A stretch of DNA of 64,000 bases from Gallionella sp. (GTDB lineage Bacteria; Pseudomonadota; Gammaproteobacteria; Burkholderiales; Gallionellaceae): the NCBI GenBank assembly GCA_028710565.1, contig JAQTTV010000018.1:1-64000 (forward strand), in the 5' to 3' direction. Shown one piece after another: positions 644 to 58,138 of the stretch. The notes under the pieces are model-generated. The model had not been told where the DNA came from and ran no database searches. It saw only the letters and a program-made list of their open reading frames with translations. The translations under genes and the position numbers were made by a program. Each line of letters opens with the position of its first letter. Position 1 is the first letter of the stretch.

Positions 644-916
644 GACGCGCTCCTTATTACACCCTGTCGGTTCGTCATTGTAGGTGAGAATTTATTCTCA
701 CGCCTTTAACGCCATAAAAAACGTGCGAATCTGTCGTGCCTACAGCATGCTTAACATCCCAACGGCGGGGGCATTACGGATGTCGTTATAGTATGCCCAG
801 CCCCTATGCAGCGACAATACAGAATTACCTTTACAAACCCCGCATTCCGCTGCGCTATATGCGGGCTACGGGCAATTCCTCCGCGTCTTGCTTCCCCGCT
901 ATGGCATAATCCCCCC

Positions 917-3181
917 ATGAACTCTACTCTCCTAGCCAACCTCAATCCTCCCCAACTCCAAGCTGTCACCCTCCCGCACCAGTCCGCGCTGATTTTGGCG
1001 GGGGCGGGGAGTGGGAAGACGCGGGTTTTAACCACGCGCATTGCTTATTTGGTGAGCCATGATGGCGTGCCTGCGAATCGCATTTTGGCGGTTACCTTTA
1101 CCAATAAGGCGGCGAAGGAGATGTTGACGCGGCTGTCGGCGATGTTGCCGATTCATCCGCAGGGCTTGTGGATCGGGACGTTTCACGGCTTGTGTAATCG
1201 GCTGTTGCGCACGCATTATTTTGAGGCGAATCTGCCCAAGACTTTTCAGATTTTGGATAGCAGCGATCAGTTGTCGGCGATTAAGCGTTTGATGAAATTG
1301 CTGAATGTGGATGATGAAAAGTATCCGCCGCGTGATGTGGCGAATTTTATCAATCGCCACAAAGAACAAGGGCGGCGCGCTGCCGAGGCGGATACCTTTA
1401 GTGCGCATGACAAGCAAAAGGCAGCGATTTTTGCGGAATATGATTTGCAATGCCAGCGCGAAGGCGTGGTGGATTTTGCTGAATTGATGTTGCGCTGTTA
1501 TGAATTGTTGTCGCGCAATGCCGAGCTGCGTGAGCATTATCAAGCGCGCTTTTCGCATATTTTGGTGGATGAATTTCAAGATACCAATAAGCTGCAATAT
1601 CAATGGCTTAAGTTGTTGGCGGGACATCCCTCTCCTCAATCCTCTCCCGCAAGCGGGCGAGGAGGCGAACGTGAAGGGCGATTTTCGACCGCTGCCTTAT
1701 TCGCCGTGGGCGATGATGACCAGTCTATCTACGCGTTTCGCGGGGCGGATGTGGGAAATATGCGCGAATTGACCCGCGATTTTCACGTTGAAACGGTGAT
1801 TAAGCTGGAGCAGAACTATCGTTCGCACGGCAATATTCTCGACGCGGCGAACGCGCTGATTCAAAACAACCGCAATCGCATGGGCAAAAATCTGTGGACG
1901 GCGGCGGATGGCGGCGAGCCGATTCGGGTGTTTGAAGCCCCGAACGACGTGGAAGAGGCGGCGTATATCGTCGGCGAAATTCAGCAGTTGCACCGCGAAG
2001 GCATGGACTTGAAAGACATCGCCTTGTTGTATCGCTCCAATGCGCAATCGCGGGTGCTGGAACACGCGCTGGTGTCGGCTGGCTTGGCGTATCGCGTGCA
2101 TGGCGGACTGCGCTTTTTTGATCGGTTAGAAATCAAACACACGCTGGCGTATTTGCGCTTGATGGAAAATACCGATGACGATAACGCTTTGTTACGCATC
2201 ATCAATTTTCCCACGCGCGGCATCGGCGCACGCAGCATTGAACAATTGCAAGAAGTCGCCATCCAGCAAGGCACGACCTTGTGGGACGCAGCGGCGCGGG
2301 CAGGTGGCAAAGTGACCGCGTTTGTAGCACTAATCGAATCCATGCGCCACGCGGCGCGTAGTTTGTCTTTGCCCGAAATCATCAGTCACGTGTTGCAACA
2401 CAGCGGGTTGAAAGCGGGCTACGAAAACGAAACGGGGGCGAAACGTGCGGAAGCGCAAGAACGCCTCGCCAACTTAGAAGAGCTGGTCAACGCCGCCGTG
2501 TTGTTTGTGCATGAAAACGAAGACGACAGTTTGACCTCGTTCTTGACCCACGCCTCGCTGGAAAGCGGCGAACATCAAGCGGGCGACCAAGACGACGCGT
2601 TGCATTTGATGACCGTACACGCGGCAAAAGGCTTGGAATTCCACGCGGTGTTTATCAGCGGATTGGAAGAGGGCCTGTTCCCGCACCAAAACAGCCAGCG
2701 CGAAGCCAGTGGCGTGGATGAAGAACGTCGCTTGATGTACGTCGCCATCACCCGTGCGCGCCAGCGTTTGTACCTCAGCTTTGCGCAAAGTCGTATGTTG
2801 CACGGCAAGGTTAATTACGGCGTGGCTTCGTGCTTTTTGGAAGAGTTGCCCGAAGAATTGCTACACTGGATTACCCCCAAACGCACCGCCTTTGCGCCCA
2901 CCTTTACCCCGCAAAATAACCCGTTTGCGACCTACATTTCCCCCGTTTCACGCCCCGTGCCGACTCCCCCGCGCAATCAACGCACGATGGCATCCAGCAC
3001 CCAACGCACGGTCAGCGGCACAGAATGGCGCATTGGGCAAAGCGTGACGCACGCTAAGTTTGGCGATGGCGTGATCGTCAACCTAGAAAGCAGCGGCGCC
3101 GATGCCCGCGTCCAAGTCAAATTCCGCACCGCTGGCGTGAAGTGGTTGTCGTTGGAATATGCTAAGTTGACGGCGGTGTAG
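917..3181 (+). CDS. uvrD: UvrD/PcrA-type ATP-dependent DNA helicase (ORF track opens at 806; ATG at 917 preferred)
   Basis: Walker A AGAGSGKT, VDEFQDTN, VGDDDQSIYAFRGAD, QNYRSH, MTVHAAKGLEF, VAITRARQRL and UvrD-type C-terminal domain. Confidence 0.95.
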   Translation: MNSTLLANLNPPQLQAVTLPHQSALILAGAGSGKTRVLTTRIAYLVSHDGVPANRILAVTFTNKAAKEMLTRLSAMLPIHPQGLWIGTFHGLCNRLLRTHYFEANLPKTFQILDSSDQLSAIKRLMKLLNVDDEKYPPRDVANFINRHKEQGRRAAEADTFSAHDKQKAAIFAEYDLQCQREGVVDFAELMLRCYELLSRNAELREHYQARFSHILVDEFQDTNKLQYQWLKLLAGHPSPQSSPASGRGGEREGRFSTAALFAVGDDDQSIYAFRGADVGNMRELTRDFHVETVIKLEQNYRSHGNILDAANALIQNNRNRMGKNLWTAADGGEPIRVFEAPNDVEEAAYIVGEIQQLHREGMDLKDIALLYRSNAQSRVLEHALVSAGLAYRVHGGLRFFDRLEIKHTLAYLRLMENTDDDNALLRIINFPTRGIGARSIEQLQEVAIQQGTTLWDAAARAGGKVTAFVALIESMRHAARSLSLPEIISHVLQHSGLKAGYENETGAKRAEAQERLANLEELVNAAVLFVHENEDDSLTSFLTHASLESGEHQAGDQDDALHLMTVHAAKGLEFHAVFISGLEEGLFPHQNSQREASGVDEERRLMYVAITRARQRLYLSFAQSRMLHGKVNYGVASCFLEELPEELLHWITPKRTAFAPTFTPQNNPFATYISPVSRPVPTPPRNQRTMASSTQRTVSGTEWRIGQSVTHAKFGDGVIVNLESSGADARVQVKFRTAGVKWLSLEYAKLTAV
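1627..1690. repeat. REP-like palindromic repeat inserted in frame in the uvrD coding sequence
   Basis: ccctctcctcaatcctctcccgcaagcgggcgaggaggcg; encodes HPSPQSSPASGRGGERE between LLAG and the motif III region. Confidence 0.75.
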
Positions 3182-3211
3182 TACGTCTTTTTTTAAATTT
3201 GGGGACGCTAC

Positions 3212-6200
3212 ATGCGAATCACCGCCAGCCATATCGTTAATTGGGTAGAGCAACACGCAAAAGAGGCGCAAGCCTCTTTGCCACGTTGGGTGCGGCGGTT
3301 GTGTTATGAAGTGGGCGTGACTCGTCAATTGTCTTTTCCCGCAGGGGATTCAACTTACATTCCTGGTTGGGATGGTGTGCTGCAACACGAACAAGGTAAT
3401 GCTTGGGTTCCGCAAGGTCTTTCATGCTGGGAAGTGGGATGCGACAAGGATGTTACGAAAAAAGCCAACAAAGAGTACCTAAAGCGTACGGCGGCAACCC
3501 CTGTTGAGTCGCGCCAAAACTTCACTTTTGTTTTTGTTTCTGCTCGGCGGTGGACTGGGAAATTAAAATGGATTCAGGCACAAAAGGATAAGCACGAGTG
3601 GGCAGCTGTACGTGCTTTTGACGCAGATGATTTGGAGCAATGGTTAGAGCAACGACCTGATGTAGCGGTGCAACTTGCCGAGGAATTTGGCCTGTCTGGC
3701 TGGGGCGTGGTTAGTTTGGAGCATTATTGGCGGGATTGGTCTCGGCAATGTTCTCCGCCGATTACGTATGAGGCATTGTTGGTTGACCGCATTCAAACAC
3801 GCGATCAGCTCATTGGAAAACTATCCCAAGACTCAAGTGCTCCTTTGATTATCCGAGCAGATAGCGAAATGGAAGCGGTTGCTTTTGTGGTCGCCAGTGT
3901 CAGCAATATTCCCGAATTGTTTCATGCTGCATTGGTCATCACAGCCCCAGAAGGTTGGCAATACGTCAATGCCAACGCCCAGTTGCAAATGGTAATCGTT
4001 GCTCAATCCGAGATTGCGACTACGCTAACCACGCGCCAAGGGCTACGCGTCGTCATACCTTGCGCTGCGGGTAATATCATCGGTAATTCACAACAAGACA
4101 TCGTTAATTTACCCCGTCCAAATATCTATGATTTTGAGAAAGCTCTCGCCTCGATTGGAGAGGAAGAATCCGATGCCAAACGCTTGGCTTTATCGACAGG
4201 GCGATCTTGGTCAGTTTTTCGGCGGATTCGTGCAATCAATCCCGCCATTCGTCATCCCGCTTGGATCGGTTTGCCTGCTGCGGGCAGCTTAACAACGCTC
4301 TGCTTAATTGGGACGTGGTCGGATAGCCATAAAGCAGATCGCCACATCATTGAACAACTTGCTGGTAAAAGTTACGATGAAATGGAGCGTAATTTGCGCA
4401 CGCTATCCCAATTAGACGATGCCCCTGTATTACAAATCGGTGCGGTGTGGAAAGCCAAATCACCACTTGAGTTGCTGCACTTAAAAGGTGGCGAAATTAC
4501 GCGCAGCGAGTTAGATCGGTTTTTCGAGGTTGCCGCAGATATTCTCAGTACACCAGACCCACAGTTGGAACTGTCAGACAGTGAGCGATATGCCGCTGCA
4601 ATACACGGCAAAATCAGACCCCATTCCGACTTGCTGATTGAGTCACTGTGTGACGCGCTGATTAAGTTAGCCGTGCACGGGAACAGTATTTCCAGCTTGA
4701 ACCATCTGAATGTTGTTCAACGCGTAGAAAAATTGGTATCCGATTTGCTGGGTGATGCAAGTGGTGAGCGTTGGCTTTCGCTTGCCTCATATTTGCCCGC
4801 CTTAGCAGAGGCTGCACCAGAAGCCTTTTTAAAATCAGTCGAGACCAGTTTATCTTCATCCGAAAAAGCGGTAACACGATTACTCACTGAAACAGGCGAG
4901 TCAGGTAGCATGGGGCGTTGCTGGCACGCTGGATTGCTTTGGGCATTGGAAGTTTTAGCGTGGCAATCCAAAAATTTGGCGCGTGTTGCGTTGATTTTAG
5001 CGCGCTTGTGTCATGTGCCTATCAAAGGCAATTGGGGCAATAAACCCATGAGTAGCTTATTCGGGTTATTTAGAACATGGTTGCCGCAAACCAGTGCAAC
5101 AGTGGAAAAGCGGATACAAGTGTTGGACTTGCTGATTCTGAAAGAGCCAAACGTTGCATTTGAAGTGCTAAAAGGATTGATGGAATGGGGTCATCAAACA
5201 GCCACGCCTGCTGCCCAACCAAAATGGCGCGACGACAACGCGGGTGCGGGAAAAGTAACGGAAGCTGAAATGTGGCAAATGGTAACCGCTGCGCGAGAGC
5301 GGCTGATTCCATGTTGTCGAGGGGATGTTGATCGTATTGCACAGCTTATTGAAGGAACATTTTTTACCAATGATGTTGAACTATTCGGCAAGTTGCTGGA
5401 ATTGGCGAAGGAATTTGCTCAAGATGGTGCAACGGATGAGCAGCGTGAAAAAATCCGAACCAAACTGCGCAGCAAACTACATCGGTATCGAAATTACGAT
5501 AAGACTCCAGCAGAGATTTTGGAGAAGCAATTAGAGCCACAGGAAACACTGTATCAAGATCTCGCACCCATTGATTTGGTACTACGGCATCGCTGGCTAT
5601 TTGAAACGTATTGGGCAAAACTGCCTTGCAAAATGCCCGAACATCTTTCAGATCAAAGAGATGAACTCCTTGCCACCGTACGGCAAACCGCCGTAAGTGA
5701 AATCGTCGAGAGGCTGGGTGATATTGGCGTGCAGCGTTTAATTGCTGAATGCAAAGAGCCTCAAGTCGTTGGTATGAGCCTAACGAAAATTGGATGGGAT
5801 GAAGCGAAACAAGTGGATTGGGTTATTCAGCATGGCGGCAATTTTGCACTCGGTGCGCCCTTTTCCAACTGCGTTTCTGGGCTGTTGCGCTTCACCCCAC
5901 AAGAAAATTTTTCGCCTCTGATGAACAAACTGCTAAAGCACGGTGAAAGTTTGGATTGGGATGCTGGTACGCGCGCACGCCTGCTGATGTTGGCATATCC
6001 AAATTGGGTGACATGGCAACTTGTGGAGCGTCAGGATGTCGAGGTTGTCCGAATTTATTGGTGTGAAGTGAATTTAGGCTGGTCGTTGCCGAATGAAAAA
6101 GAGCATTTGGATTTTGTATTGCAACGCCTGTTAGCCGTCAATCGCGCAAGAACTGCATTGCGATGCTGTAGTCATGCTTTAGATTATTTAGACGACTCCT

Positions 6201-6988
6201 TGTTGCTCGAAATGCTACAGCGTTTTGTTCAAGGAGAAGAGCCAGAGGGGGTGCTACCCGAATCGTGGGATTTAGGCAATATGCTGGATAAACTGGAAAA
6301 ATCCGACACCATCGACAAAATGGCACTGATTCAACTGGAATTTTCTTTATTTCCAGTATTTCAGTATGAGCAAAAAGACAGGGTGTCTGCTCTTTATAAA
6401 GCCATGATGGATGAACCTAGTTTTTTCGTTCAGCTACTTTGTCTTTGTTTCAAACCGAGTCACGGTGAGATTGAAGCATCCGTTGCTGAAATGAACCCTG
6501 AAATTTCAACGATTGCATGGGGTATTCTTCACGCTTGCACTCGGCAAGCTGGCACGCAAGCCAACGGCAGCATTGATTCTGCTGGATTTATAGCATTTAT
6601 TGAGCAAGTGCGTGAACTGAGTCGTCAGGCGGATCGCTTGGATGTATGCGACATCACCCTCGGACAAATACTGGCTCATGCGCCTGCGGATAAAAATGGA
6701 TTAGCCCCTTTTTCTGCTGCTAGGGAGCTATTGGATCGTCCCGAAATGAACAATGTGCGCGAAGGGTTTTATGTAGGTACAAGAAATAAACGGGGTGCAC
6801 ACTCTCGTGCAATGTTGGCTGGAGGCGAACAAGAGTATAACTTGGCGCAGTATTACCGCACCTTAGCTGAACCTTTGCAAACCAGTGTCCCTAATATGGC
6901 CGCTTTATGGGAAGAAATAGCAAAGAGCTACGATGAAGATGCTAAACGTGAAGACATACAAGCGGATTTGCGTAAAGAGGGGTATTGA
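3212..6988 (+). CDS. large uncharacterised protein (1258 aa), possible nuclease/STAND-like defence protein
   Basis: Long uninterrupted ORF; N-terminal GWDG...SCWEVGCDKDVTKKANKEYLKRT...TFVFVSARRW looks PD-(D/E)XK-like; no canonical Walker A seen. Confidence 0.85.
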   Translation: MRITASHIVNWVEQHAKEAQASLPRWVRRLCYEVGVTRQLSFPAGDSTYIPGWDGVLQHEQGNAWVPQGLSCWEVGCDKDVTKKANKEYLKRTAATPVESRQNFTFVFVSARRWTGKLKWIQAQKDKHEWAAVRAFDADDLEQWLEQRPDVAVQLAEEFGLSGWGVVSLEHYWRDWSRQCSPPITYEALLVDRIQTRDQLIGKLSQDSSAPLIIRADSEMEAVAFVVASVSNIPELFHAALVITAPEGWQYVNANAQLQMVIVAQSEIATTLTTRQGLRVVIPCAAGNIIGNSQQDIVNLPRPNIYDFEKALASIGEEESDAKRLALSTGRSWSVFRRIRAINPAIRHPAWIGLPAAGSLTTLCLIGTWSDSHKADRHIIEQLAGKSYDEMERNLRTLSQLDDAPVLQIGAVWKAKSPLELLHLKGGEITRSELDRFFEVAADILSTPDPQLELSDSERYAAAIHGKIRPHSDLLIESLCDALIKLAVHGNSISSLNHLNVVQRVEKLVSDLLGDASGERWLSLASYLPALAEAAPEAFLKSVETSLSSSEKAVTRLLTETGESGSMGRCWHAGLLWALEVLAWQSKNLARVALILARLCHVPIKGNWGNKPMSSLFGLFRTWLPQTSATVEKRIQVLDLLILKEPNVAFEVLKGLMEWGHQTATPAAQPKWRDDNAGAGKVTEAEMWQMVTAARERLIPCCRGDVDRIAQLIEGTFFTNDVELFGKLLELAKEFAQDGATDEQREKIRTKLRSKLHRYRNYDKTPAEILEKQLEPQETLYQDLAPIDLVLRHRWLFETYWAKLPCKMPEHLSDQRDELLATVRQTAVSEIVERLGDIGVQRLIAECKEPQVVGMSLTKIGWDEAKQVDWVIQHGGNFALGAPFSNCVSGLLRFTPQENFSPLMNKLLKHGESLDWDAGTRARLLMLAYPNWVTWQLVERQDVEVVRIYWCEVNLGWSLPNEKEHLDFVLQRLLAVNRARTALRCCSHALDYLDDSLLLEMLQRFVQGEEPEGVLPESWDLGNMLDKLEKSDTIDKMALIQLEFSLFPVFQYEQKDRVSALYKAMMDEPSFFVQLLCLCFKPSHGEIEASVAEMNPEISTIAWGILHACTRQAGTQANGSIDSAGFIAFIEQVRELSRQADRLDVCDITLGQILAHAPADKNGLAPFSAARELLDRPEMNNVREGFYVGTRNKRGAHSRAMLAGGEQEYNLAQYYRTLAEPLQTSVPNMAALWEEIAKSYDEDAKREDIQADLRKEGY

Positions 6989-7119
6989 AGCGTTACATTA
7001 TCTGTTCAAAGCAAGTGAGATTGTTCGCTGATACCCCAATCCCAAAAATCACCCCTTGAAAAATCCGAAAACGGCTTCACCTTGTCTCCCACTGTTTAAC
7101 CACTATTGAAGGGACACGT

Positions 7120-9009
7120 ATGACGACGAATCAAGAAACGATGGGTTTTCAAACCGAAGTGAAGCAACTGTTGCAGTTGATGATTCATTCTTTGTATTCC
7201 AATCGTGAGATTTTCCTGCGCGAGCTGGTTTCCAATGCTTCCGATGCTTGCGACAAATTGCGCTTTGAAGCCTTGCACAATGATGCTTTATTTGAAAACG
7301 AGTCGGATTTGCAGATTCGCATCGGCTACGACAAAACCGCGCGCACGCTGACCATCGCCGATAACGGCATCGGCATGACCCGCGACGAAGTGATTACTAA
7401 CCTTGGCACCATTGCCAAATCTGGTACACGTGAATTCTTCTCCAAACTCAGCGGCGACCAACAAAAAGACGCGAATTTGATTGGTCAATTCGGCGTGGGC
7501 TTTTACTCCGCGTTTATCGTGGCGGACAAAGTGACGGTGGTGACGCGCCGTGCAGGTGAAAAAACTGATCAAGGCGTGTGCTGGGAATCCGATGGCGGTG
7601 GCGAATTTACCTTGTCCATGCTGGAAAAAGCCACACGTGGTACAGAAATCACCTTACATCTGCGTGACGACCAAGATGATTTGTTGAGCGGTTTTAAATT
7701 ACGTTCCATCATCCAAAAATACTCTGACCACATCGTGCAACCGATTGTGATGAAAAAAGAGGAATGGAAAGAAGACGGTCAAGTGACCACGGATGAAGAC
7801 GAAACGGTCAACCAAGCCTCCGCATTGTGGGCGCGTTCCAAAAGCGACATCACCGAAGACGAATACAAGGTCTTTTACAAACACGTCGGTCACGATTATC
7901 AAGACCCGTTGGCGTGGACACATGCCCGCGTGGAAGGTCGTCAGGAATACACCCAACTGTTGTACGTTCCCGCCAAAGCACCGTTTGACATGTGGGATCG
8001 CAATGCGCGCCACGGCGTGAAATTGTATGTGCGCCGCGTGTTTATCATGGACGATGCGGAACAATTATTGCCAACCTATATGCGTTTTGTGCGCGGGGTG
8101 GTCGATTCCAATGACTTGCCGCTGAACGTATCGCGTGAAATTTTGCAAGAATCCAAAGACATCGAATCCATGCGCAAAGGCTGTACCAATAAAGTATTGA
8201 GCTTGCTGGAAGATTTGGCGAAGAACGACGCAGACAAATACGCGCAATTCTGGACAGAGTTCGGCGCGGTGCTGAAAGAAGGCGTGGGCGAAGATCGTGT
8301 CAATCAAGAAAAGGTTGCTGGTTTATTGCGCTTTGCTACCAGCCGTGCGGACACGCCTGAAGAAAACGTTTCCTTGGCGGATTACGTCGCCCGCATGAAA
8401 GAAGGTCAGAACAGTATTTACTTTATCACTGCTGACAGTTTCAACGCCGCAAAAAACAGCCCGCATCTGGAAGTGTTCCGCAAAAAGGGCATCGAAGTGT
8501 TGCTGTTGTCGGCGCGGGTGGATGAGTGGGTGGTCGGCTCCTTGACGGAATTCTCAGGTAAAGAACTGGTATCCGTGGCAAGAGGTGACTTGGATTTAGG
8601 CGCGTTGGAGGATGAAGCTGAAAAACAATCCCAAGCACAACAAGCAGATGATTACAAAGACTTGATTGAAAAAATCAAAACTAGCTTGGACAGCCGCGTC
8701 AAAGATGTGCGCATCACCCACCGTTTGACTGATTCTCCTGCTTGCTTAGTCGCAGACGAACACGACATCGGTGGCAACATGGCGCGCCTGCTCAAAGCAG
8801 CTGGTCAAAAAGCCCCCGCCAGTGTGCCGATTCTGGAAATCAACCCAGACCACCCTGTTGTCACCCGCCTAAAAGCAGAAGTAACCCACTTCGACGACTG
8901 GGTCGCGGTGCTGTTCGACCAAGCCTTGTTAGCCGAAGGCGGGCAATTGGATGACCCCGCAGGTTTTGTCAAACGCGTGAATCATCTGATGTTGGAAATG
9001 CGCGGGTAG
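7120..9009 (+). CDS. htpG: molecular chaperone HtpG (Hsp90)
   Basis: [65 protein letters not shown]. Confidence 0.98.
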
Positions 9010-9031
9010 TTGATGCAGTAAGTAGATGAAC

Positions 9032-9058
9032 AAAGGGTGACGAAAGTCGCCCTTTTTA
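9032..9058 (+). terminator. Rho-independent terminator after htpG
   Basis: aaagggtgac-gaaa-gtcgccctttttatt. Confidence 0.7.
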
Positions 9059-9270
9059 TTTAACTCGCGTAGAGGGTAACGAGCTTTGCGGTATCGTCAC
9101 GAAGAACACGATCATCATCGCCCTTGATAAGCGATGCAGAAGACTATGAACCCATTCTCCTTGAGAAGACAAAAGCTAAGTGCAGTAACAATGGCACTAT
9201 GACAAAGCGCGTTGCGAAGTCCAATATTCGGTGCATCGTACAGAGGACTGTCATTCTGCGGCGAGTGTGT

Positions 9271-9558
9271 CTAGTTGCGCCCCGTTTCTGGGAGGGTGAT
9301 GTTTAACTCTAAGACATCAAACTCATCGTACTCGTCGCGCTTGCCAAGATGAACTTTCAATGCGCTGCGATCAACGGGAATGTATTTGGCGATCACCGCA
9401 AGCAACTCTTCTTGTAAGGCAGGCAGGTAGTCGGGTGGGGCGACATCGCGGCGATCTCGTTTATGCACTAACACAAACTGTAAGCGTTCTTTGGCTTTGG
9501 CGGCAGATTTTTTTTCATCGCCGCGTAAATACTCTAAAAGGCCATCAAGCAGGGACAT
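9271..9558 (-). CDS. minE: cell division topological specificity factor MinE
   Basis: MSLLDGLLEYLRGDEKKSAAKAKERLQFVLVHKR; directly downstream of minD. Confidence 0.95.
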   Translation of the reverse strand: MSLLDGLLEYLRGDEKKSAAKAKERLQFVLVHKRDRRDVAPPDYLPALQEELLAVIAKYIPVDRSALKVHLGKRDEYDEFDVLELNITLPETGRN

Positions 9559-9559
9559 A

Positions 9560-10366
9560 TTAGCGATCTCCAAATATGCGTTTGAGAAAGCTCACTTTCC
9601 CAGTTGTGAAGCGCATCGGCACCGCTTCTCCGATGAAACGCGAAACCACATCTTTGTATGCTTCTGCCACATCGCTTTTTTGATGGATGGCAGGAACGCC
9701 AGAGTTGGAGGCAAAAAGTACGGACTCTGATTCTGGAATCACCCCAATTAAAGGGATGCGCAGCATGTCTTCAATGTCCTCCACCTTGAGCATTTCTTCG
9801 GCTTCGGCGCGTTTGGGACTGTAGCGGGTAATCAACAAATGCTCTTCAATGGGCGCGCGTCCTTCTACGGCACGTTTGGATTTTGCCGCCATGATGCCGA
9901 GGATGCGATCCGAGTCGCGTACTGAAGAGACTTCTGGATTGGTGACAACCAGCGCGTGATCGGCAAAATACATCGCCATAAATGCACCTGATTCAATACC
10001 CGCAGGGGAGTCGCAGATGATGTAATCGAAACTTTCGCGCAATTCGTTCAGAATGCGTTCCACACCTTCCAAATTCAATGCATCTTTGTCGCGTGTTTGC
10101 GAAGCCGCCAAAATGTAGAGATGCTCGCAATTCTTGTCTTTAATCAAGGCTTGATGCAGCGTGGCTTCGCCGTTAATCACATCAATAATGTCATATACCA
10201 CGCGTCGTTCGCAGCCCATGATAAGGTCAAGATTGCGTAGCCCTACGTCGAAATCAATAACGACTGTTTTGTGACCGCGTAATGCGAGACCGCTGGAAAA
10301 GTTCGCGCTGGTCGTGGTTTTGCCCACGCCGCCTTTTCCTGATGTAACAACAATAATTTTAGACAC
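9560..10366 (-). CDS. minD: septum site-determining protein MinD
   Basis: MSKIIVVTSGKGGVGKTTTSANFSSGLALRGHKTVVIDFDVGLRNLDLIMGCERRVVYD. Confidence 0.98.
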   Translation of the reverse strand: MSKIIVVTSGKGGVGKTTTSANFSSGLALRGHKTVVIDFDVGLRNLDLIMGCERRVVYDIIDVINGEATLHQALIKDKNCEHLYILAASQTRDKDALNLEGVERILNELRESFDYIICDSPAGIESGAFMAMYFADHALVVTNPEVSSVRDSDRILGIMAAKSKRAVEGRAPIEEHLLITRYSPKRAEAEEMLKVEDIEDMLRIPLIGVIPESESVLFASNSGVPAIHQKSDVAEAYKDVVSRFIGEAVPMRFTTGKVSFLKRIFGDR

Positions 10367-10454
10367 GTAATGTATTCCTGAAAGCTAAGTTGGCGTGCAT
10401 TTTACGCTGAAGTGCGGCATTGTTTGCATCTGTTTCAAAGAGGATGGCAGGGGT

Positions 10455-11147
10455 TTAGTAGCTTTGTATAACGAGGCGAGCTTCATCTAAATATACCTGC
10501 ACAGGATGATTGCGTACATTTTGGGGAATACCTTCTTCAAACATTTGAAAGCACCCCGCGATGGAGAGTAATTCAGCTTCTAAACTTTGCACAAAAATGC
10601 GCGCACCTTGGTTGCCCTGTGCGCCTGCCATGGCGCGACCACGTAGGGGAGCATAGACGTGAATATCCCCATCCGCAATCAGTTCAGCTCCTGCATTCAC
10701 AATTGCCAGTACCACGAGATCGGTATTTTCAGCATAAATTTTTTGTCCTGCGCGCACGGGTTTATCTATGACCAATGGAGGGAGGGGCTGGGCGGGCGAG
10801 GGGTCTGGAAAAGCCGTGGCATTGCGCAAAGGGGTGTCAGGAAACAAGCTTAACCCTGCTTGTGTGGCGGCGGCTTGCTGTTCAGCAGAACCCCCCAGCA
10901 CGCCGATGAGCCGCATCCCATGTTCCCACATCAGGGTGGTTAATGCGGCAAAATCAAATTTTGTTGGGCTATTCCCTACGGCTGATAATCCCAGTACTAC
11001 AGGGGTATGTGAGAAAAAATCGGGGGTTTGGCTGAGGCGTGACGCTAATTGGCGTTTAATTTGAGCCATGTTGTTGCTATGTACGTGGATCACCCATAAA
11101 GGGAGATTGGCAATTTTAATTTTGAACGCGGGTTCTGCGAGAGTCAT
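10455..11147 (-). CDS. minC: septum site-determining protein MinC
   Basis: minCDE gene order; C-terminal VRAGQKIYAENTDLVVLAIVNAGAELIADGDIHVYAPLRGRAMAGAQGN. Confidence 0.96.
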   Translation of the reverse strand: MTLAEPAFKIKIANLPLWVIHVHSNNMAQIKRQLASRLSQTPDFFSHTPVVLGLSAVGNSPTKFDFAALTTLMWEHGMRLIGVLGGSAEQQAAATQAGLSLFPDTPLRNATAFPDPSPAQPLPPLVIDKPVRAGQKIYAENTDLVVLAIVNAGAELIADGDIHVYAPLRGRAMAGAQGNQGARIFVQSLEAELLSIAGCFQMFEEGIPQNVRNHPVQVYLDEARLVIQSY

Positions 11148-11267
11148 GGTTGTCTTCTAGTGCGCCGAGCATGAGTACACGACGTTAAGTCGCATTAAGG
11201 TCAGTAAGGCGAGGAATTGTAACGAGTGCATGCTCGGTTTACAATGCTTTGTTGATAGTGAAGGTGT

Positions 11268-13148
11268 TTAATTGACTAAATTGTTCGCTATCACTGTGTT
11301 GATTGCGCTTGTGTCCAAGTTGTAATAATTGCTTGAATTCCAGTTCTTGCTGGCAATTACGTTGCCAATAATCGCCAGCCAATTACTTTTTCTTGAAATT
11401 AAAAATTTGCCATCATTCGTTCCCGTATCTCCAAGGACATTGCCAGAAATGTTTGCATAAGTTACGCCGTTTAATCCTATGGTTTCAATGCTAACACCAG
11501 AAGCCGCAGACGAGTTTCCGCCTAAAGTATTATCTGTGATGGATACGTGGGACGATGAAGAAATGACAGCAAATTGATTGAAGTGCTGTGTGCTATTCCC
11601 CGAAATGGCGATGCGCTCTGAGTCCGCAATGGATAGGAGTGGGTAGTTTTTCATCTGGCTAAAACTATTCCCAACGATAGTCACCTGAGCCGCATCATGA
11701 ATGTCGATGAATGCCGATAGCGTGCCATTGCCATAATAAGGATCAAATTGGTTGCCAGTGATTGAAACACCACTCATTTTGTTTGCTGCTGTCCCTGCGC
11801 TAGACATATAAATACCCGTTCCTAAGGAGTAATAATTGTTTGCGCCAATTAAAGTTTGGTGTGAGACATGATTGCCTGTAATTGTTAACCCCTTTTGAAC
11901 GGATTCATCTAGGTTGCTATTGCCCCTTACATGAATGCCTGCAAAGTCATTTCTGTAGCCTTTTGTGGCGGCAGTTAATCCTTGGGTGTAAATCATATTT
12001 CCCGTGACGGTAACGCCTGCGGCGTGTTCCAGATAAATACCCGCGCTCTTATATAGCCCTGATCCATAGTTTTTAGCACCCACTGCGCGTCCATATTTAG
12101 GATCCTCATCGAACTGCGTCATGCCCTTTTCCACGTTAATTATATTGTTGGCGATTACTACACCATAACTGCGCCCAGGTGATTCACCTAATCGCACGGA
12201 TATGCCCACTTTGCAGGATATGACGGTATTACCTATTACTTTTGTACCGTCAGAATCGTTTTTTACATCAATCCCGTAGAAGTGGCCATGTACATGATTC
12301 CCTGTTAATGTCGCAAAGCGCTGTCCGCTATCGGCCCCCATGCCTTGTGCGATACCAAATATCAATGTTCTAGTCGGATCATCTTTGGCGTAATTAAAAG
12401 CTTTACTATTTTTGATCGTATTCTTATCTCCAGATCCATATAGGAAAATGTCCCCATCGCCACAAGATACGTAAGAAACACAGGAATCAATGGTGTTTTC
12501 TGTGCCTGAATAGATCGCAAAATGAGATCCTGATACTTTGAAGTTGACTAAATCTAGCTCTGAAAGATTATTTAGCATCACGCTGTTGCGGCAATTGTAA
12601 AAGTGTACGCCAGCACGCATCGAAATCGTATGGATGCGCTCTACGAGCGAATCCGAACTGTTGTTAAACGCAACACCAGCTCCAGTAAACAAATGTTTTG
12701 CGGTTCGTGCTGCGTTTGTGCCAAGGATAGTCATGTCACTAATATGTACACTATTAGCACCATTGACTAGAAATGCAGTTGCATAAGATGTATCACCCTC
12801 ATCAATTTCAAACTTAGCCCCATTGCCGTGAATAATGACGGAAGACGTGATGATTACTGCGTAAAAGTTTTGGTTTACACTGTCATATGAGGTGATGCCT
12901 CCTTGTCTTGATAATAGATATGCGCCAGATCCTCGCTCGAACTCAAGGGGGAGTCCCTTTTTTTGTGCAAAGTTCACGGCGGTTTGAATTGCGGTTGTGT
13001 CGTCTATGTTATCCCCAGACGTAGCCCCAAAGTCGGCAACGTTGACAGAGTGTATATTGCCAGCAGTGGGGTTGGTGGTATCAATCGCAGCAAAGGGAGC
13101 GGTTGAATATAAAATCAGTAGAAAGATATATTGCGAAAGCTGTTTCAT
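11268..13148 (-). CDS. secreted right-handed parallel beta-helix protein (pectate-lyase-like fold)
   Basis: Signal peptide MKQLSQYIFLLILYSTAPFAA; VADFGATSGDNIDDTTAIQTAVNFAQ; many ITGN/ISGN-type coil repeats. Confidence 0.85.
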   Translation of the reverse strand: MKQLSQYIFLLILYSTAPFAAIDTTNPTAGNIHSVNVADFGATSGDNIDDTTAIQTAVNFAQKKGLPLEFERGSGAYLLSRQGGITSYDSVNQNFYAVIITSSVIIHGNGAKFEIDEGDTSYATAFLVNGANSVHISDMTILGTNAARTAKHLFTGAGVAFNNSSDSLVERIHTISMRAGVHFYNCRNSVMLNNLSELDLVNFKVSGSHFAIYSGTENTIDSCVSYVSCGDGDIFLYGSGDKNTIKNSKAFNYAKDDPTRTLIFGIAQGMGADSGQRFATLTGNHVHGHFYGIDVKNDSDGTKVIGNTVISCKVGISVRLGESPGRSYGVVIANNIINVEKGMTQFDEDPKYGRAVGAKNYGSGLYKSAGIYLEHAAGVTVTGNMIYTQGLTAATKGYRNDFAGIHVRGNSNLDESVQKGLTITGNHVSHQTLIGANNYYSLGTGIYMSSAGTAANKMSGVSITGNQFDPYYGNGTLSAFIDIHDAAQVTIVGNSFSQMKNYPLLSIADSERIAISGNSTQHFNQFAVISSSSHVSITDNTLGGNSSAASGVSIETIGLNGVTYANISGNVLGDTGTNDGKFLISRKSNWLAIIGNVIASKNWNSSNYYNLDTSAINTVIANNLVN

Positions 13149-13363: not shown

Positions 13364-13437
13364 TGAAAATATATCTATGTGTCGGCTCTGGATGTCTCTA
13401 AGCGGTCGGAGTGGTGTCTCTTTCAGGGGCAGGAGTG

Positions 13438-16400
13438 ATGGTTCAAAGTTTAAGGAGTGTTGGAGTGAGTTTTTTACGAGGCGGTAAGATTAAGTTGAGT
13501 GTTTGTCTGCAAAAGTTACGTATTGTTGCCTTATATTTGATGCTGATATCGGTATCGACAGTGGTGAGTGCTGAGTCGGCTAAAACGCCTGATCAAGACG
13601 TGCAGCGTAAGGTCGCTAAAAGTGGTGATCAACCATCTGCGCCAGTGGGCGGGGCTCCGCTGCCCTTCACTCCTGAGCAGGTGCAAACTTTAAGTCAGAT
13701 CGCTGGTGCGAAGAGTAGTGGTTCAACTGAAACGCCTACTGCTGTTGTGGTGGAAGCTCCTACTGTTGTCAAGGCTCGACAAGTAGAAAGTGGGCGTTTG
13801 GAAGCTGCACCAGCAAGTGCTGATGCGCAAAAAGCGGTCGTTGAAGTAGAAAAGTCTCCCGCTGTAGATGTTCCTCTTGCGGTTACTGCATCGCAAAAAA
13901 CGGCAGACAGTCAGGCGGTGCATCGTTCTTTTGAAGATTTCTTGCGTGAAGCAAAGCCAATGGCTGTAAGTGCGGAAGGGTTGCAGCAGTTTGGCTATGA
14001 TTTATTTGCGACTGAGCCGAGTAGTTTTGCTCCTGTTACAAATGTGCCTGTTCCGCCAGAGTATGTGTTAGGTCCAGGCGATGAAGTCAAAGTGCAGTTA
14101 TTTGGTAAAGATAATAAGGACTTGGTATTGGTCATTGATAGAGAGGGTTCTGTCGCATTTCCGCAAGTCGGTCCAATTACTTTGGCTGGGCTGAGTTTTG
14201 GACAAGCTAAAACGATGCTGTCCGAAATGATTGCCCAAAAGATGATAGGCAATACTGCAAGTATTACGATGGGACAGTTGCGCTCCATTAGGGTTTTTGC
14301 GCTGGGTGATGTGTTTCGTCCTGGGTCCTATACTGTGAGCGGATTGGCTACTTTATCTCACGCCTTGTTCTCATCAGGTGGGGTTAAGAAAATGGGATCA
14401 CTGCGTAATATTCAACTTAAACGCAGTGGGAAGCCTGTTGTTACACTTGATTTGTATGATTTCTTGTTGCGTGGTGACACCAGTAAAGATAGTCGGTTGT
14501 TGCCAGGCGATGTTGTGTTTGTCCCACCTCTTGGATCTACTGTTTCAATAGCGGGTCAAGTTGCTCGCCCTGCTATTTATGAGATTAGGAATGAAAGAAC
14601 GGTAAAGGATATTCTGAAAGTTGCTGGTGGGTTGATGCCCAATGCGTACTTAGACCGCGCCCTGATTGAACGTTTGGACGGAAAAGGTGCTAAGAAGATC
14701 GTTAACATTAGTCTCACTGGTGTGGGTTTGCTTGCGCCCATACAAAATGGTGATGTGATTAAGGTTTTTTCTGGAACCGAGTTTGAAACGAATCAAGTGT
14801 TGTTAATTGGTAATGTGAAACGTCCTGGTACCCATGCCTGGGAAAAGGACATGCGCGTTTCTTCAGTGGTTCGATCCATGGATGATTTGTTGCCTGAGAC
14901 TTTTGTTGATTATGGCATCATTGAAAGAGAAGCCCCTGGAAATAGAGAGCCTATGTTGGTGCGCTTTCGTTTGAGTGAGGTCTTGTCAGAAGGTGGAAAA
15001 AATAGCGCGGCTGATTTGGCACTGCAACCCCGCGATAAAGTGTATATTTTCAAGCGTGCTAATTTCCGTCAACAGCCGACAGTGAGCATCTCTGGTAGTG
15101 TGCAAACTCCAGGTAGTTACGAGTTTAAACGTAATATGCATTTGGCAGATTTGGTTCTGGCAGCGGGTGGCGTGCTGCGTGAAACAGATATGGGAATGGT
15201 CGAGATTTATCGAACTGATTCAGAAAGCAAAAAAGTAAATTTGCTCAAGGTGAGCTTAGAGCGTGCAATGGCAGCTGATATGGGTTCTGATGTGATTTTG
15301 CAAGATCTAGATCGTGTTGTTATTCATTCAGTATTTGAGACCAAGTTGCGTGACACCGTTTCAATTGCTGGGCAAGTGCATAAGCCAACAACGGTGGAGC
15401 TTACTCAAGGTATGCGAGTGTCAGATTTGGTTTTTGCGGGTGGTAGTGTGACAGAATTTGCCTTTCTTAAAAAGGCTACGTTGACTCGATATGCCATGGA
15501 AAATGGTGAAAAGCGTATATCCAAATATGTGAGTATTAATTTGTCCGCTGCATTAAAGGGCGATGAGGTGGCTAATTTGCTATTGGAGCCATATGATTCG
15601 CTGTTTATAACACGTGTCAATGATGAACCTAATACACGCACTGTAGCGATTTCGGGGGAGGTGATAAAGCCAGTACCTTCTATGGTTTTCGTTGATGGTA
15701 TGCGGATAACTGATCTTGTATTTGCAGGGGGAGGGCTGACGGAGTTTGCTTTCCTTAAAACGGCTAGACTAACACGCTATTCATATGAGAATGGTGAAAA
15801 ACGTTCTCCTCAGTATATCAATATTGATCTTTCAGCTGCTCTAAAAGGTGATGAGTCGGCAAATATTATGATCCAACCTTATGATTTATTGTATATAAAT
15901 CGTATCAATGATGAACCCAATACGCGGGATATTGTATCAGTAGGTGGTGAGGTTTATCACCCTGCCTCTGTGCCATTAGTGCCAGGGATGCGGGTTTCAG
16001 ATTTGGTTTTTGCTGGGGGGGGCGTAACGGATTCAGTATATTTGGATAAATCCGAAATTACGCGTTATACCATCGAAAATGGTGAGCGTCGTGTTGCAGA
16101 GCATTTTGAAGTGAATCTTACTGCGGCACTGCGTGGTGATCAGGATGCTAATTTACTTTTAAAACCATATGATGTGCTCACTGTACGTCGTTTGGCAAAT
16201 TGGAAAAATATGGCAGACGTGACAATCGAAGGCGAAGTGCGACACCCTGGGAAATACCCAATAGAGGAGGGTGAGTTGCTGTCGTCATTGCTGGCTCGTG
16301 TAGGGGGTGCCACTTCACAGGCGTATATACCCGCTTTGGTCTTTACGCGTGAATCTATTCGGGTTGCGCAAGAAAAACAAATTAACGATTTGGTTCAACA

Positions 16401-16965
16401 CATGCAATCTCAATTAGCGGATATTGAAAATACTACTTCGCAGACTGATGATCCCTCGTTAAAAACACAGCGTGAGCATGGTGTTGAAGCGGCAAAGCGG
16501 GTGTTGGGTCAGTTAAAAGGAACAAAAGCGACGGGGCGTTTGGTCGTTCGTATTGATGACATCAACAACATTAAGGGAACGGAAATGGACTTGCACCTAC
16601 GTGCTGGTGACAGGTTAGTTATTCCACAAAAGCCTGATGATGTCGTCGTCGTTGGTGAGGTGTATAGCCAAAATGCCATATTGTTCGATTCTAGTTTCAG
16701 TCGTGACGACTATGTGGCTCAAGCTGGATTGACCCGCATGTCAGATAAAGACGAAATATATGTGGTACATGTCAATGGTCAAGTTGATCAAGGTAGTGGT
16801 GGGTTCTTCTTTTCAGGTGGAGGAATTGGGCCAGGAGATACAATTGTCGTTCCACCTGATCTACAACATATTGATTGGATAGATATTGCTTTGGATTGGT
16901 CACGTGCCATGATGCAAATTGGAACCACTATTGCAGCGGGTAAAGCGATTGGGATTTACAAATGA
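13438..16965 (+). CDS. very large SLBB-domain polysaccharide export protein (Wza-like)
   Basis: YVLGPGDEVKVQLFGKDN...; many SLBB-like repeats; SD-like AGGAG before the ATG. Confidence 0.9.
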   Translation: MVQSLRSVGVSFLRGGKIKLSVCLQKLRIVALYLMLISVSTVVSAESAKTPDQDVQRKVAKSGDQPSAPVGGAPLPFTPEQVQTLSQIAGAKSSGSTETPTAVVVEAPTVVKARQVESGRLEAAPASADAQKAVVEVEKSPAVDVPLAVTASQKTADSQAVHRSFEDFLREAKPMAVSAEGLQQFGYDLFATEPSSFAPVTNVPVPPEYVLGPGDEVKVQLFGKDNKDLVLVIDREGSVAFPQVGPITLAGLSFGQAKTMLSEMIAQKMIGNTASITMGQLRSIRVFALGDVFRPGSYTVSGLATLSHALFSSGGVKKMGSLRNIQLKRSGKPVVTLDLYDFLLRGDTSKDSRLLPGDVVFVPPLGSTVSIAGQVARPAIYEIRNERTVKDILKVAGGLMPNAYLDRALIERLDGKGAKKIVNISLTGVGLLAPIQNGDVIKVFSGTEFETNQVLLIGNVKRPGTHAWEKDMRVSSVVRSMDDLLPETFVDYGIIEREAPGNREPMLVRFRLSEVLSEGGKNSAADLALQPRDKVYIFKRANFRQQPTVSISGSVQTPGSYEFKRNMHLADLVLAAGGVLRETDMGMVEIYRTDSESKKVNLLKVSLERAMAADMGSDVILQDLDRVVIHSVFETKLRDTVSIAGQVHKPTTVELTQGMRVSDLVFAGGSVTEFAFLKKATLTRYAMENGEKRISKYVSINLSAALKGDEVANLLLEPYDSLFITRVNDEPNTRTVAISGEVIKPVPSMVFVDGMRITDLVFAGGGLTEFAFLKTARLTRYSYENGEKRSPQYINIDLSAALKGDESANIMIQPYDLLYINRINDEPNTRDIVSVGGEVYHPASVPLVPGMRVSDLVFAGGGVTDSVYLDKSEITRYTIENGERRVAEHFEVNLTAALRGDQDANLLLKPYDVLTVRRLANWKNMADVTIEGEVRHPGKYPIEEGELLSSLLARVGGATSQAYIPALVFTRESIRVAQEKQINDLVQHMQSQLADIENTTSQTDDPSLKTQREHGVEAAKRVLGQLKGTKATGRLVVRIDDINNIKGTEMDLHLRAGDRLVIPQKPDDVVVVGEVYSQNAILFDSSFSRDDYVAQAGLTRMSDKDEIYVVHVNGQVDQGSGGFFFSGGGIGPGDTIVVPPDLQHIDWIDIALDWSRAMMQIGTTIAAGKAIGIYK

Positions 16966-19212: not shown

Positions 19213-20109
19213 ATGCGAAGTAAACAAAGTCAACTTGAAGCCCAATCTATTGAAATCATACGAGAGGCAGTTGCTACTTCCAGTAATCCCGTGATGATGT
19301 ATTCAGTAGGTAAAGATTCTTCTGTGATGCTACATTTAGCACGCAAAGCCTTCTGGCCCGCCCCCCCTCCTTTTCCTTTATTGCATGTAGATACCACTTG
19401 GAAGTTTAGGGAAATGATTGCTTTTCGCGATTTGATGGCGAAGGAGTCTGGCATGGAGCTGCGTGTGCATATCAATCTTGCTGCACAAGAGGAAGGTATT
19501 TCGCCTTTTGTGCATGGTTCTGAACGATACACTGATCGTATGAAGACTGAAGGTTTAAAGCAAGCCTTGGATTCAGGTGGTTATGATCTTATTTTTGGTG
19601 GTGCACGACGCGATGAAGAAAAGTCACGTGCAAAAGAAAGAATTTTTTCTTTTCGTGCCCCTGGTCATCGCTGGGATCCTAAAGCCCAGCGTCCTGAGTT
19701 ATGGAATTTATATAACACGCGCATTAATACAGGCGAAACAATACGTGTCTTTCCACTCTCCAACTGGACTGAAGCCGATATTTGGCAATATATTGCCTCA
19801 GAAAATATTCCGATTGTGCCGCTATATTTCGCAGCGGAGCGTCCTGTGGTTAAACGTGGGGATAAGTGGATCATGGTTGATGACGAACGTTTTCCGTTGA
19901 ATGCAGGGGAGTCGCCTGAAATGCGATTGGTGAGGTTCCGTACACTGGGCTGCTATCCACTGACTGCGGCACAGGAAAGTAATGCTGATACGCTAGAAAA
20001 AATTATTGAGGAAACATTGGCAGCTTCTTCATCAGAACGTGAAGGTCGTTTAATTGACCATGATGGTGCAGGTTCAATGGAACGCAAAAAACAAGAAGGA
20101 TATTTCTGA
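19213..20109 (+). CDS. cysD: sulfate adenylyltransferase subunit 2
   Basis: [42 protein letters not shown]...[16 protein letters not shown]. Confidence 0.97.
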
Positions 20110-21941
20110 TGCTCGATGCTTTACGTTTTATTACTTGTGGTAGTGTTGACGACGGAAAGTCAACCCTGATTGGTCGTCTGTTGTATGAGTCCAAGCAAAT
20201 TTTTGAAGATCATTACCAAGAGCTTGAGAAAGCTTCAGGGAAGTATGGCACGCAAGGTAAGGAATTAGACTTAGCCTTGCTGGTTGATGGTTTGCAAGCT
20301 GAGCGTGAACAAGGCATCACCATTGATGTTGCCTACCGTTTTTTTTCAACTGAAAATCGTAAATTTATCGTTGCTGACACCCCAGGTCACGAACAATACA
20401 CGCGAAATATGGCGACGGGCGCATCCACTGCTGATTTGGCAGTATTGCTGATTGATGCACGTAAAGGACTACTTACTCAAACCAAACGTCATAGTCGTAT
20501 TGTTTCAATGCTTGGCGTGCGCCATATCGTGGTTGCCGTCAATAAAATGGATATGATAGGTTGGGATGAAGCCGCCTTTAATGCCATTGTGACAGACATT
20601 CGTGCTCTCGTAGAGAATTTTGGATTTGCATCGGTTCAAGCTATTCCTATGTCTGCCTTGACAGGTGATAACGTCGCTTTTCATTGCGAACAAACACCTT
20701 GGTACACTGGACCAAGCTTGCTCGAATACTTGGAATCGGTTGATGTTTCAAAGCCAGAGGCAATTCAGCCTTTTCGCATGCCAGTACAATATGTCAATCG
20801 CCCTAACTCTGAATTTAGAGGATATTGTGGCTGTGTCGCATCTGGTAGCATTAACGTCGGCGACTCAATACGCGTAGTGCCAGGTGGGGCGGAAGCTAAA
20901 GTCAAATCTGTAGTGATTTGGCAAGGAGAACAACCTACCGCCAACACAGGTGATGCCGTCACGATTACACTAGATCGCGAAGTCGATGTCAGTCGAGGGC
21001 AAGTGTTAAGCAGTGTTGACGATCCCATTGAAATTAGTGACCAATTTGAAGCTAGTGTTTTATGTCTGTCTGAACACCACCTTGTCCCTGGTCGCCCCTA
21101 CTTGATTAAACTGCACACGGCACAAGTAGGGGTTACCATTAGCAACATTAAATTCAAGCTCGATATTAACCAAGGCAGCCACCTCGCTGCCAGCACACTT
21201 GAATTAAATGACATTGGCGAAGTAACACTTTACACCAACCTTCCTGTTGCTTTTGAATCTTACAAACAGTGCAAAACACTGGGTGCATTCATCCTGATTG
21301 ATCGCATGACCAACGAAACGGTTGCTGCGGGTATGATTAACTTTGCGTTGCGTCGTGCTTCAAATGTTCATTGGCAATCTGTAGAAATTAATAAAGCAGC
21401 TCGTGCGACGCTCAAGTCACAGAAGCCTGCTTGTATTTGGTTCACAGGATTGTCTGGTTCAGGTAAATCTACGATAGCTAATCTGCTAGAGAAGCGACTC
21501 TTTGTAGCTGGTCAACATACATATTTGCTGGATGGAGACAATGTGCGTCATGGTCTAAATCGTGATTTAGGCTTTACTGAAGCGGATCGTGTTGAGAACA
21601 TACGTCGTGTAGCAGAAGTTGCTAAGCTCATGGTTGATGCAGGTTTGATTGTTATTGTGTCGTTTATAAGTCCTTTCCGTGCTGAACGGGAGTATGCACG
21701 CTCCTTGTTCCAAGAGGGTGAATTTGTTGAGGTGTTTGTTGATACACCTTTAACAGAGTGCGAAGCTCGTGATGTGAAGGGGTTGTATGCCAAGGCACGT
21801 CAAGGTAAGATAGCCAACTTTACGGGGCTTAGTAGCCCTTATGAACGTCCGGATTCGCCTGAAATACAGCTGAATACTTTGAATTGTTCGCCTGATCAAT
21901 GCGTTCAGACTATATTGAGCGAAGTCATAAAACAACAATAA
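20109..21941 (+). CDS. cysNC: bifunctional sulfate adenylyltransferase subunit 1 / adenylylsulfate kinase
   Basis: GTPase motifs ([36 protein letters not shown]) fused to APS kinase ([50 protein letters not shown]). Confidence 0.97.
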
Positions 21942-21954
21942 GCGTAATGGAATA

Positions 21955-23136
21955 GTGCTAATGAAACAAATTCAAGTATCTAAAGATCTTGCTATCAATG
22001 GAGCTGCCCCAGCCTTTGATCAGCCGTTGCATGTCGGACGCCCTAATATAGGCGATCGTGACTTGTTTATGAAGTATGCGGAGGGTATCTTTGATCGGCG
22101 TTGGTTGAGTAACAATGGACCGCTGGTGCAGGAATTTGAGCAGAAAGTCGCTGACTATCACAAGGTTAAGCATTGTGTCTCAATGTGTAATGGTACTGTA
22201 GCCTTAGAAATTGCAATTCGTGCGTTGGGCTTGACTGGAGAGGTTATTATTCCCTCTTATACTTTTGTGGCGACAGCACACGCATTAAGTTGGCAGGCGA
22301 TTACGCCCGTGTTTGCTGATATTGACCCAGTAACGCACACACTTGACCCTGCTTCTGTTCGCCGCATGATTACGCCACGTACAACAGGTATCATCGGTGT
22401 GCATTTGTGGGGGAGACCCGCTGAGACAGAAGCATTACAACAAATTGCAGATGAGCATAATCTCAAGCTTATGTACGATGCAGCCCACGCATTTGGCTGC
22501 TCTAGCAAAGGTACTATGGTCGGGAACTTTGGTGCATGTGAAGTATTAAGTTTTCATGCAACCAAATTCTTCAATACCTTTGAAGGTGGTGCTGTTATTA
22601 CAAATGATGACGATCTAGCTGAAAAAATGCGCTTAATGCGTAATTTCGGATTTGCAGGGTTTGATAATGTAGTGCACATGGGCATTAATGGAAAAATGAT
22701 CGAAATTGCGGCCGCAATGGGGCTGGTCAATTTAGAAGCAATCGATCATGTGATTGAGATCAATCGCCGTAACTACCACCTGTACAAGGAGGCTTTGTCA
22801 GATTTGCCAGGCGTTAGTTTATTGTCATTTAATGAGGAAGATCATAACAACTATCAATATGTAGTGATGGAAGTTAGTGAAGGATCTTCCGTTTCACGGG
22901 ATGCAATAATTGAAGCTTTACATGCCGAAAATATACTAGCACGTAAATATTTCTGGCCTGGTTGCCATGGCATGAAGCCCTATCGCGAACTTTATCCACA
23001 TGCAAGTTTATTGCTTCAAAATTCAGAAAAAGTGGCTGATAGGGTTGTAGTTTTGCCGACTGGTACGACTATGTCGAAGGAGATGGTTGAGGCGGTGGCA
23101 AGTGTGATTCGGGTATTGATTCTGGGAAATGCGTGA
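21955..23136 (+). CDS. DegT/DnrJ/EryC1-family PLP-dependent sugar aminotransferase
   Basis: WLSNNGPLVQEFEQKVADYH, CNGTVALEIAIRALGL, EVIIPSYTFVATAHALSW, SFHATKFFNTFEGGAVITND. Confidence 0.93.
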   Translation: MLMKQIQVSKDLAINGAAPAFDQPLHVGRPNIGDRDLFMKYAEGIFDRRWLSNNGPLVQEFEQKVADYHKVKHCVSMCNGTVALEIAIRALGLTGEVIIPSYTFVATAHALSWQAITPVFADIDPVTHTLDPASVRRMITPRTTGIIGVHLWGRPAETEALQQIADEHNLKLMYDAAHAFGCSSKGTMVGNFGACEVLSFHATKFFNTFEGGAVITNDDDLAEKMRLMRNFGFAGFDNVVHMGINGKMIEIAAAMGLVNLEAIDHVIEINRRNYHLYKEALSDLPGVSLLSFNEEDHNNYQYVVMEVSEGSSVSRDAIIEALHAENILARKYFWPGCHGMKPYRELYPHASLLLQNSEKVADRVVVLPTGTTMSKEMVEAVASVIRVLILGNA

Positions 23137-23193
23137 TCCTCTTCGTTTTTAGGTGAATGTGGCTCTGATTCCGTTAAACATTTAAGGCGATAC

Positions 23194-23751: not shown

Positions 23752-23807
23752 CCCTTGGCAGAGAAAAGTAATACTTATAAAAACTGTGTCATCAGGTGTT
23801 TCTAGAT

Positions 23808-26182: not shown

Positions 26183-26269
26183 TAAATATAGTTATCCGCG
26201 AATAATTTGTCGTTTAAGACGTTTAGGTAATGTGAATGCCCGTCGTATCAGTATTATGGAAAGCCCAGT

Positions 26270-27322: not shown

Positions 27323-27381
27323 TATGAGAACCTCTCAGTTAAAAATACTTCTGTTTGCGCGACATAAATCAAGGTGAAAAT

Positions 27382-29364: not shown

Positions 29365-29390
29365 GTAGCAAATCTTAACGTTAGGATATT

Positions 29391-29996: not shown

Positions 29997-30000
29997 GAAA

Positions 30001-31317: not shown

Positions 31318-31337
31318 GATAAAATGGGTGCTATAGA

Positions 31338-55738: not shown

Positions 55739-55857
55739 TCTCGGAGCTGTGTTTTTGGGTGCGTATATCCCATTTAATCTTAAAAATGAGACGTGCTCCC
55801 TCCACTAAACGACCAAAAGCGTACACTTCGCATTCTCTGAATCGAGGGGGGTGTATC

Positions 55858-58110: not shown

Positions 58111-58138
58111 CAATCAGGCGTAATTTGTAGATACGGCT

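Follow-up and report, generated by a model that had tools for sequence, protein, structure and literature searches.

A 1258-residue protein inserted between uvrD and htpG in Gallionella: a candidate anti-phage sensor with a degenerate STAND core

Between uvrD and htpG on a contig of Gallionella sp., of which we analysed a stretch of 64,000 nucleotides (the window), lies a single reading frame encoding 1258 amino acids, and the locus raises the question of what so large a protein does there and how it arrived. The frame runs without interruption from ATG at 3212 to TGA at 6988, beginning 30 bp past uvrD (806-3181) and followed by htpG (7120-9009), with all three genes on one strand. The frame is a genuine gene and not a product of chance: homologues align with it end to end, at identities of 24-52%, and an alignment of 30 sequences keeps 30 columns unchanged throughout. 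The initial annotation was thus right in reading one long ORF at this position. It had also placed the gene in a housekeeping context, which holds for the flanking uvrD and htpG genes but not for the site itself, an insertion that is empty in the sister species G770. The features of the locus are as follows.

3182-7041, no strand assigned: extra segment with no counterpart in the sister species, whose uvrD-htpG site is empty (alignment of the window with G770)
3201-3206, plus strand: Shine-Dalgarno-like GGGGAC (GGGGA at 3201-3205) ahead of the ATG (direct sequence reading)
3212-6988, plus strand: gene of the 1258-residue protein, the whole finding (ORF reading and full-length homologues)

In G770, whose HtpG and UvrD proteins are 97% identical to those of the window, uvrD is followed directly by htpG with about 0.17 kb between them, as against 3.9 kb in the window; the alignment of the two runs to 3181 and resumes at 7042, leaving about 3.86 kb extra in the window. 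Since the site is empty in G770, the gene represents a recent single-gene insertion. Its GC3 is 0.44, compared with 0.64 for uvrD and 0.58 for htpG. No intact copy was found in the 36 congeners searched, one of which carries a C-terminal remnant at another locus (L045 204-670, G783:C22), with a transposase-like reading frame 5' of the remnant and a ribonucleotide reductase gene near it. A paralogue with 28% identity is present in the same genome (G000:C64:46343-50092; L029 8320-12111), placed inside a liv-type branched-chain amino-acid ABC transporter operon, where it overlaps the longest reading frame of the next gene. Taken together, the uvrD-htpG insertion and the paralogue in the liv operon indicate that the gene moves alone into housekeeping loci. 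The genes dnaA, dnaN and gyrB lie near the paralogue. The window itself also holds cas3- and cas8c-like genes (type I-C-like CRISPR-Cas, by eye) at 55759-60784, about 49 kb from the 1258-residue gene, and an exopolysaccharide export and synthesis cluster, named by eye, at 13411-16965 and 20109-32450 (SLBB-domain protein, sulfate-activating enzyme, aminotransferase, flippase, acyltransferase and glycosyltransferases).

The protein had been taken for an orphan, a description that the paralogue and a widespread family contradict. Of the genomes sampled, 13 of 399 from the phylum (about 3%) and 6 of 369 from the class contain a family match, the window genome being counted in each, and members are found on 23 plasmid records from three phyla, with hosts including Rhizobium, Shewanella, Cupriavidus, Paracoccus, Arthrobacter (Actinomycetota) and Adhaeribacter (Bacteroidota). 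Prophage contigs carry members too: a scan of viral contigs with the single protein as query gave no relative, but alignment-based scans did, the N-terminal alignment being too diverse to serve as a scan query. Among the closest relatives, L090 (51% identity overall, 61% over the first 440 residues) lies in a prophage with a tail gene on one side and an integrase on the other (gene names by eye). The prophage member of locus L063 is matched in 204 of 5426 complete E. coli genomes (about 4%), 125 of them at 80% of the length or more, and IS3 copies are found inside the matches listed, H33-H42 among them. At another E. coli locus (L097; NZ_CP178694.1 1280000-1300000), insertion sequences break up all three genes: PD-Lambda-4 A, PD-Lambda-4 B and the family gene beside them. 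Searches of Pfam, NCBIfam and PDB sequences with the protein or the family profile returned nothing significant; the family has no name in Pfam, NCBIfam or PADLOC, and the annotation of its members is often just 'HTH regulator' or 'hypothetical'.

The domain order of the protein, as read from structure models and family comparison, is given below.

3212-3691, plus strand: nuclease-like domain of PD-(D/E)XK topology, residues 1-160, with D54 (3371-3373), E74 (3431-3433) and K84 (3461-3463) invariant (AF2 topology; alignment of 30 sequences)
3758-4246, plus strand: degenerate STAND-type nucleotide-binding core, residues 183-345 (Foldseek to Avs3, Avs4, RPP1 and Apaf-1)
3854-3886, plus strand: P-loop position RADSEMEAVAF, residues 215-225, without GxxxxGK (alignment to the intact P-loop of PD-Lambda-4_A relatives)
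4250-4531, plus strand: winged-helix-like segment, residues 347-440, start of the module common to all effector variants (model and comparison of variants)
4532-6985, plus strand: HEAT-like alpha-solenoid, residues 441-1258, presumed sensor (AlphaFold model of residues 340-1258, pLDDT 84.6, pTM 0.61; Foldseek)

The initial annotation had read the N-terminus as a PD-(D/E)XK/Mrr-type nuclease, and the AlphaFold model of residues 1-440 (pLDDT 87.9, pTM 0.84) bears this out as a fold: residues 5-110 follow the order alpha-beta-beta-beta-alpha-beta seen in PD-(D/E)XK nucleases, with D54 ahead of strand 2, E74 within strand 3 and K84 in the next helix, and these three residues are invariant in 30 of 30 sequences. 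Position 76, two past E74 and the site of the lysine in a Q-x-K motif, is glycine instead of lysine in most members, so that catalysis by this domain is plausible but no firmer than that. Relocation of the catalytic lysine to the following helix is known in the PD-(D/E)XK superfamily, and the invariant K84 may replace the missing one.

The middle of the protein had been suspected of being a STAND-like but degenerate NTPase, and both parts of that reading stand. Compared with solved structures, residues 1-440 match Avs3 best (E 4e-9) and Avs4 second (E 9e-5), followed by the plant NLR RPP1 (1.5e-3) and Apaf-1 (8.5e-3), with clamp loaders and SAMD9 also among the Foldseek matches; because the domain arrangement differs, TM-scores are low and the match is a local one. 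The N-terminal motifs quoted earlier and the stretch LIIRADSEMEAVAFVVASV (residues 212-230) are present, and GxxxxGK[ST] is not found there. At the P-loop site the window protein has RADSEMEAVAF where a PD-Lambda-4_A relative has VGASGLGKSRF (GLSGVGKTR is also an intact form). The lysine and glycines of Walker A are missing from the whole family, AxSxxEA being the usual replacement for the loop, and no full-length member has GxxxxGK; the Walker B acid is missing in the window protein as well (VIVAQS versus LIVDEC or ILDNCP). The remainder, described earlier simply as helical, is indeed so, forming in the model a HEAT-like solenoid whose best Foldseek matches include karyopherins, CAND1 and SF3B1.

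The C-terminal module, from about residue 350 onwards, recurs without the STAND/NTPase core. In L060, L065-L068, L072, L078, L098 and L039 it forms one protein with a Cap4-like nuclease of 280 residues whose Q-x-K (QIK) is intact; in L043 and L044 a separate gene carrying a HEPN motif (RNxxxH) precedes it, and in L050 and L069 a HetE-N gene (Pfam E 1.5e-40) does so; the Cap4 and HEPN likenesses were judged by eye, Pfam giving no match for the Cap4-like domain. The Cap4-like variant has 8 matches in complete E. coli genomes, the listed example lying beside prophage tail-fibre genes. In the two-gene forms, a HEPN-like or HetE-N small gene is followed by the C-terminal module alone (L043 6524-9740; L050 7570-10664; L069 7540-10694). 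Between the tail of the HetE-N protein (NHSGTGDN) and the head of the large protein (QNHTGTGHN) there is a likeness in sequence that suggests a docking motif. In Adhaeribacter (L021 3932-9789), HTH, ImmA/IrrE peptidase and PDDEXK-nuclease genes precede a family gene in one direction, which is possibly a multi-gene version of the family. Effector swapping around one module is the expectation of an effector-sensor design, and three of the four forms lack the core, which speaks against a need for NTP switching.

Whereas the window copy adjoins no known defence gene, many of its homologues, far from being consistently in housekeeping contexts, lie on plasmids or prophages beside defence genes. In L063, a prophage contig of E. 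coli, a full-length family member (7887-11633) is divergent to the genes of PD-Lambda-4 A (2530 bits) and B (E 2e-164) at a distance of about 470 bp. On two Rhizobium plasmids, the family gene forms a tandem with a PD-Lambda-4_A relative. Other plasmid copies adjoin AbiEi/AbiEii, SIR2, type I restriction, Abi or SieB genes. Named Abi, restriction, SIR2 or SieB genes were found within 6-8 kb at 7 of 16 annotated plasmid loci versus about 1 of 12 control stretches, a hand-scored count from few and partly related plasmids, with controls from four of the same plasmids, and hence indicative only. On three rhizobial plasmids (L052, L055 and L056, ~4090-5625) an AbiEi/AbiEii pair is directly divergent from the family gene.

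From these features we infer, with confidence a little better than even, that the gene encodes a mobile sensor of the STAND/Avs type, which as a single protein would act against phages (or plasmids), carry a nuclease effector and be switched on without NTP. The HEAT-like solenoid (residues ~441-1258) would bind a phage or element protein; the winged-helix segment and pseudo-STAND hub (183-440) would relay the change by protein contacts, probably through oligomerisation, with neither binding nor hydrolysis of NTP; the relay would switch on the N-terminal PD-(D/E)XK-like nuclease (D54/E74/K84); and the activated nuclease would cut phage or cell DNA, stopping the infection. Of this scheme, computation bears out the order and folds of the domains, the missing Walker A, the kinship with PD-Lambda-4_A, the exchange of effectors around one C-terminal module and the mobility, whereas the defence role, the ligand, the nuclease activity and NTP-independence are inferred. 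The initial annotation had proposed an undescribed defence protein, and of that proposal the structure is supported and the function made likely. Several observations count against the sensor reading. The NTPase-like segment gives no significant match to PD-Lambda-4_A by sequence profile alone (E 0.015, probability 3), so the assignment of the core rests on the model fold and on gene and domain order. The nuclease motif is E-x-G, with which catalysis would need K84 or another lysine as a stand-in. The isolation of the window copy from known defence genes is a further point against it.

It could also be that the protein acts in defence but depends on NTP after all, either through an unusual mode of nucleotide binding by the pseudo-STAND core or through an NTP-competent partner such as PD-Lambda-4_A. 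The STAND fold kept in the model would agree with this, as would the PD-Lambda-4_A relatives with intact P-loops that adjoin members in E. coli and Rhizobium. However, all full-length members have lost Walker A and the window protein the Walker B acid as well, the window genome contains no PD-Lambda-4_A match, and the sister proteins do without the core entirely, so that we regard NTP dependence as unlikely.

Less probable still, in our view, is a plasmid or prophage stability (addiction) protein: HTH-fused members would repress their own gene, and the large protein would protect its element from loss or from rival elements, not from lytic phage. About 9 of the first 22 relatives have an N-terminal HTH domain, HigA/Xre-like or MerR-like on many relatives, which would also fit a regulator or an addiction protein, and members are often on plasmids near partition genes. 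The window clade, however, is without the HTH domain; immune sensors typically exchange effectors in the way seen here with the Mrr-like, Cap4-like, HEPN and HetE-N modules; and single-gene chromosomal insertions such as those at the uvrD-htpG site and in the liv operon have no need of element maintenance. A nuclease-dead scaffold or housekeeping factor, which would bind DNA but leave it intact and serve outside defence, for instance in uvrD-coupled repair, might be read from the glycine at the Q-x-K lysine position and the mere 30 bp separating the gene from uvrD, but is improbable given the patchy distribution, the lack of an intact copy in congeners and the invariance of D54, E74 and K84, unlikely for a dead domain; the identity of a plain housekeeping gene was rejected on account of the empty site in G770.

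Returning to the NTP-free sensor, STAND/NLR immune receptors are thought to require NTP for switching on. If the reading is true, a family without a P-loop that keeps the STAND fold, beside sisters lacking the whole domain but having the same sensor, would show by what route the switch becomes dispensable. One may go further and tentatively suppose, as a possibility that we hold to be less likely than not, that a whole branch of bacterial NLR-like sensors gave up NTP switching, with one HEAT-like module, at least four exchangeable effectors (Mrr-like nuclease with dead STAND core, Cap4-like nuclease, HEPN and HetE-N) and a direct phage-protein trigger, the core of the window protein, a dead STAND domain, being an evolutionary intermediate between PD-Lambda-4/Avs and NTP-free sensors. 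The locus further illustrates that a large candidate immune gene can stand alone in a housekeeping locus, where searches of defence islands miss it. Since the family is widespread, with about 4% of the complete E. coli genomes carrying a member, it is accessible to testing in common laboratory strains.

Among known systems, the nearest by sequence is PD-Lambda-4 protein A (PADLOC PDLC03991), which has the same length, a PD-(D/E)XK-like N-terminus, an NTPase core and a long helical C-terminus. Compared by hhalign, 30 family members and six PD-Lambda-4_A proteins reach a probability of 99.6 and an E-value of 1.1e-24 across 932 columns; when the domains are taken singly, the E-value is 2.3e-13 for the C-terminal module and 1.2e-7 for the last part of the nuclease domain, against nine column-shuffled controls at 0.06 or worse (0.4 or worse for the C-terminal module). 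At the level of sequence profiles, the family is a distant homologue of PD-Lambda-4_A, of common ancestry. PD-Lambda-4_A differs in its intact Walker A (GxSGxGK[TS]), in an FQxK nuclease motif (Q-x-K where the family has E-x-G) and in its B gene, which is not adjacent in the window. Plain membership is ruled out by these absences of P-loop and B gene and by a weak, partial profile match (E 0.0012, residues 530-642 only, where true members reach up to 2530 bits). GiPD474 of Gifsy prophages was set aside as a described relative, its Walker A at residues 29-34 denoting a different architecture, and the main text of DefensePredictor names no matching architecture; supplementary tables of E. coli defence screens may hold relatives.

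The initial annotation had the protein resembling Avs without matching it, and this describes the outcome well. Avs3 and Avs4 (AVAST), the closest solved structures for residues 1-440, likewise join an N-terminal nuclease, a STAND core and a C-terminal repeat sensor, but the AVAST models in PADLOC matched none of 34 family members; Walker A is gone from the window protein, the NTP requirement is probably lost, and the sensor is HEAT-like rather than TPR-like as in Avs3 and Avs4. The fusions to a Cap4-like dsDNA nuclease (L066 type) have residues ~350-1258 in common with the window protein and differ in their other N-terminal nuclease, their intact QIK and the absence of a STAND core. For the possible action of an NTP-free member, DSR2 offers an analogy: according to two papers (PMC11263360, PMC11087589), it consists of a Sir2 effector on a HEAT-repeat sensor, is activated by a phage protein and has no NTPase core. 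DSR2 differs in its Sir2 NADase effector and in having no pseudo-STAND core, and the likeness drawn here is one of design, the shared plan being an effector domain carried on a HEAT-type sensor.
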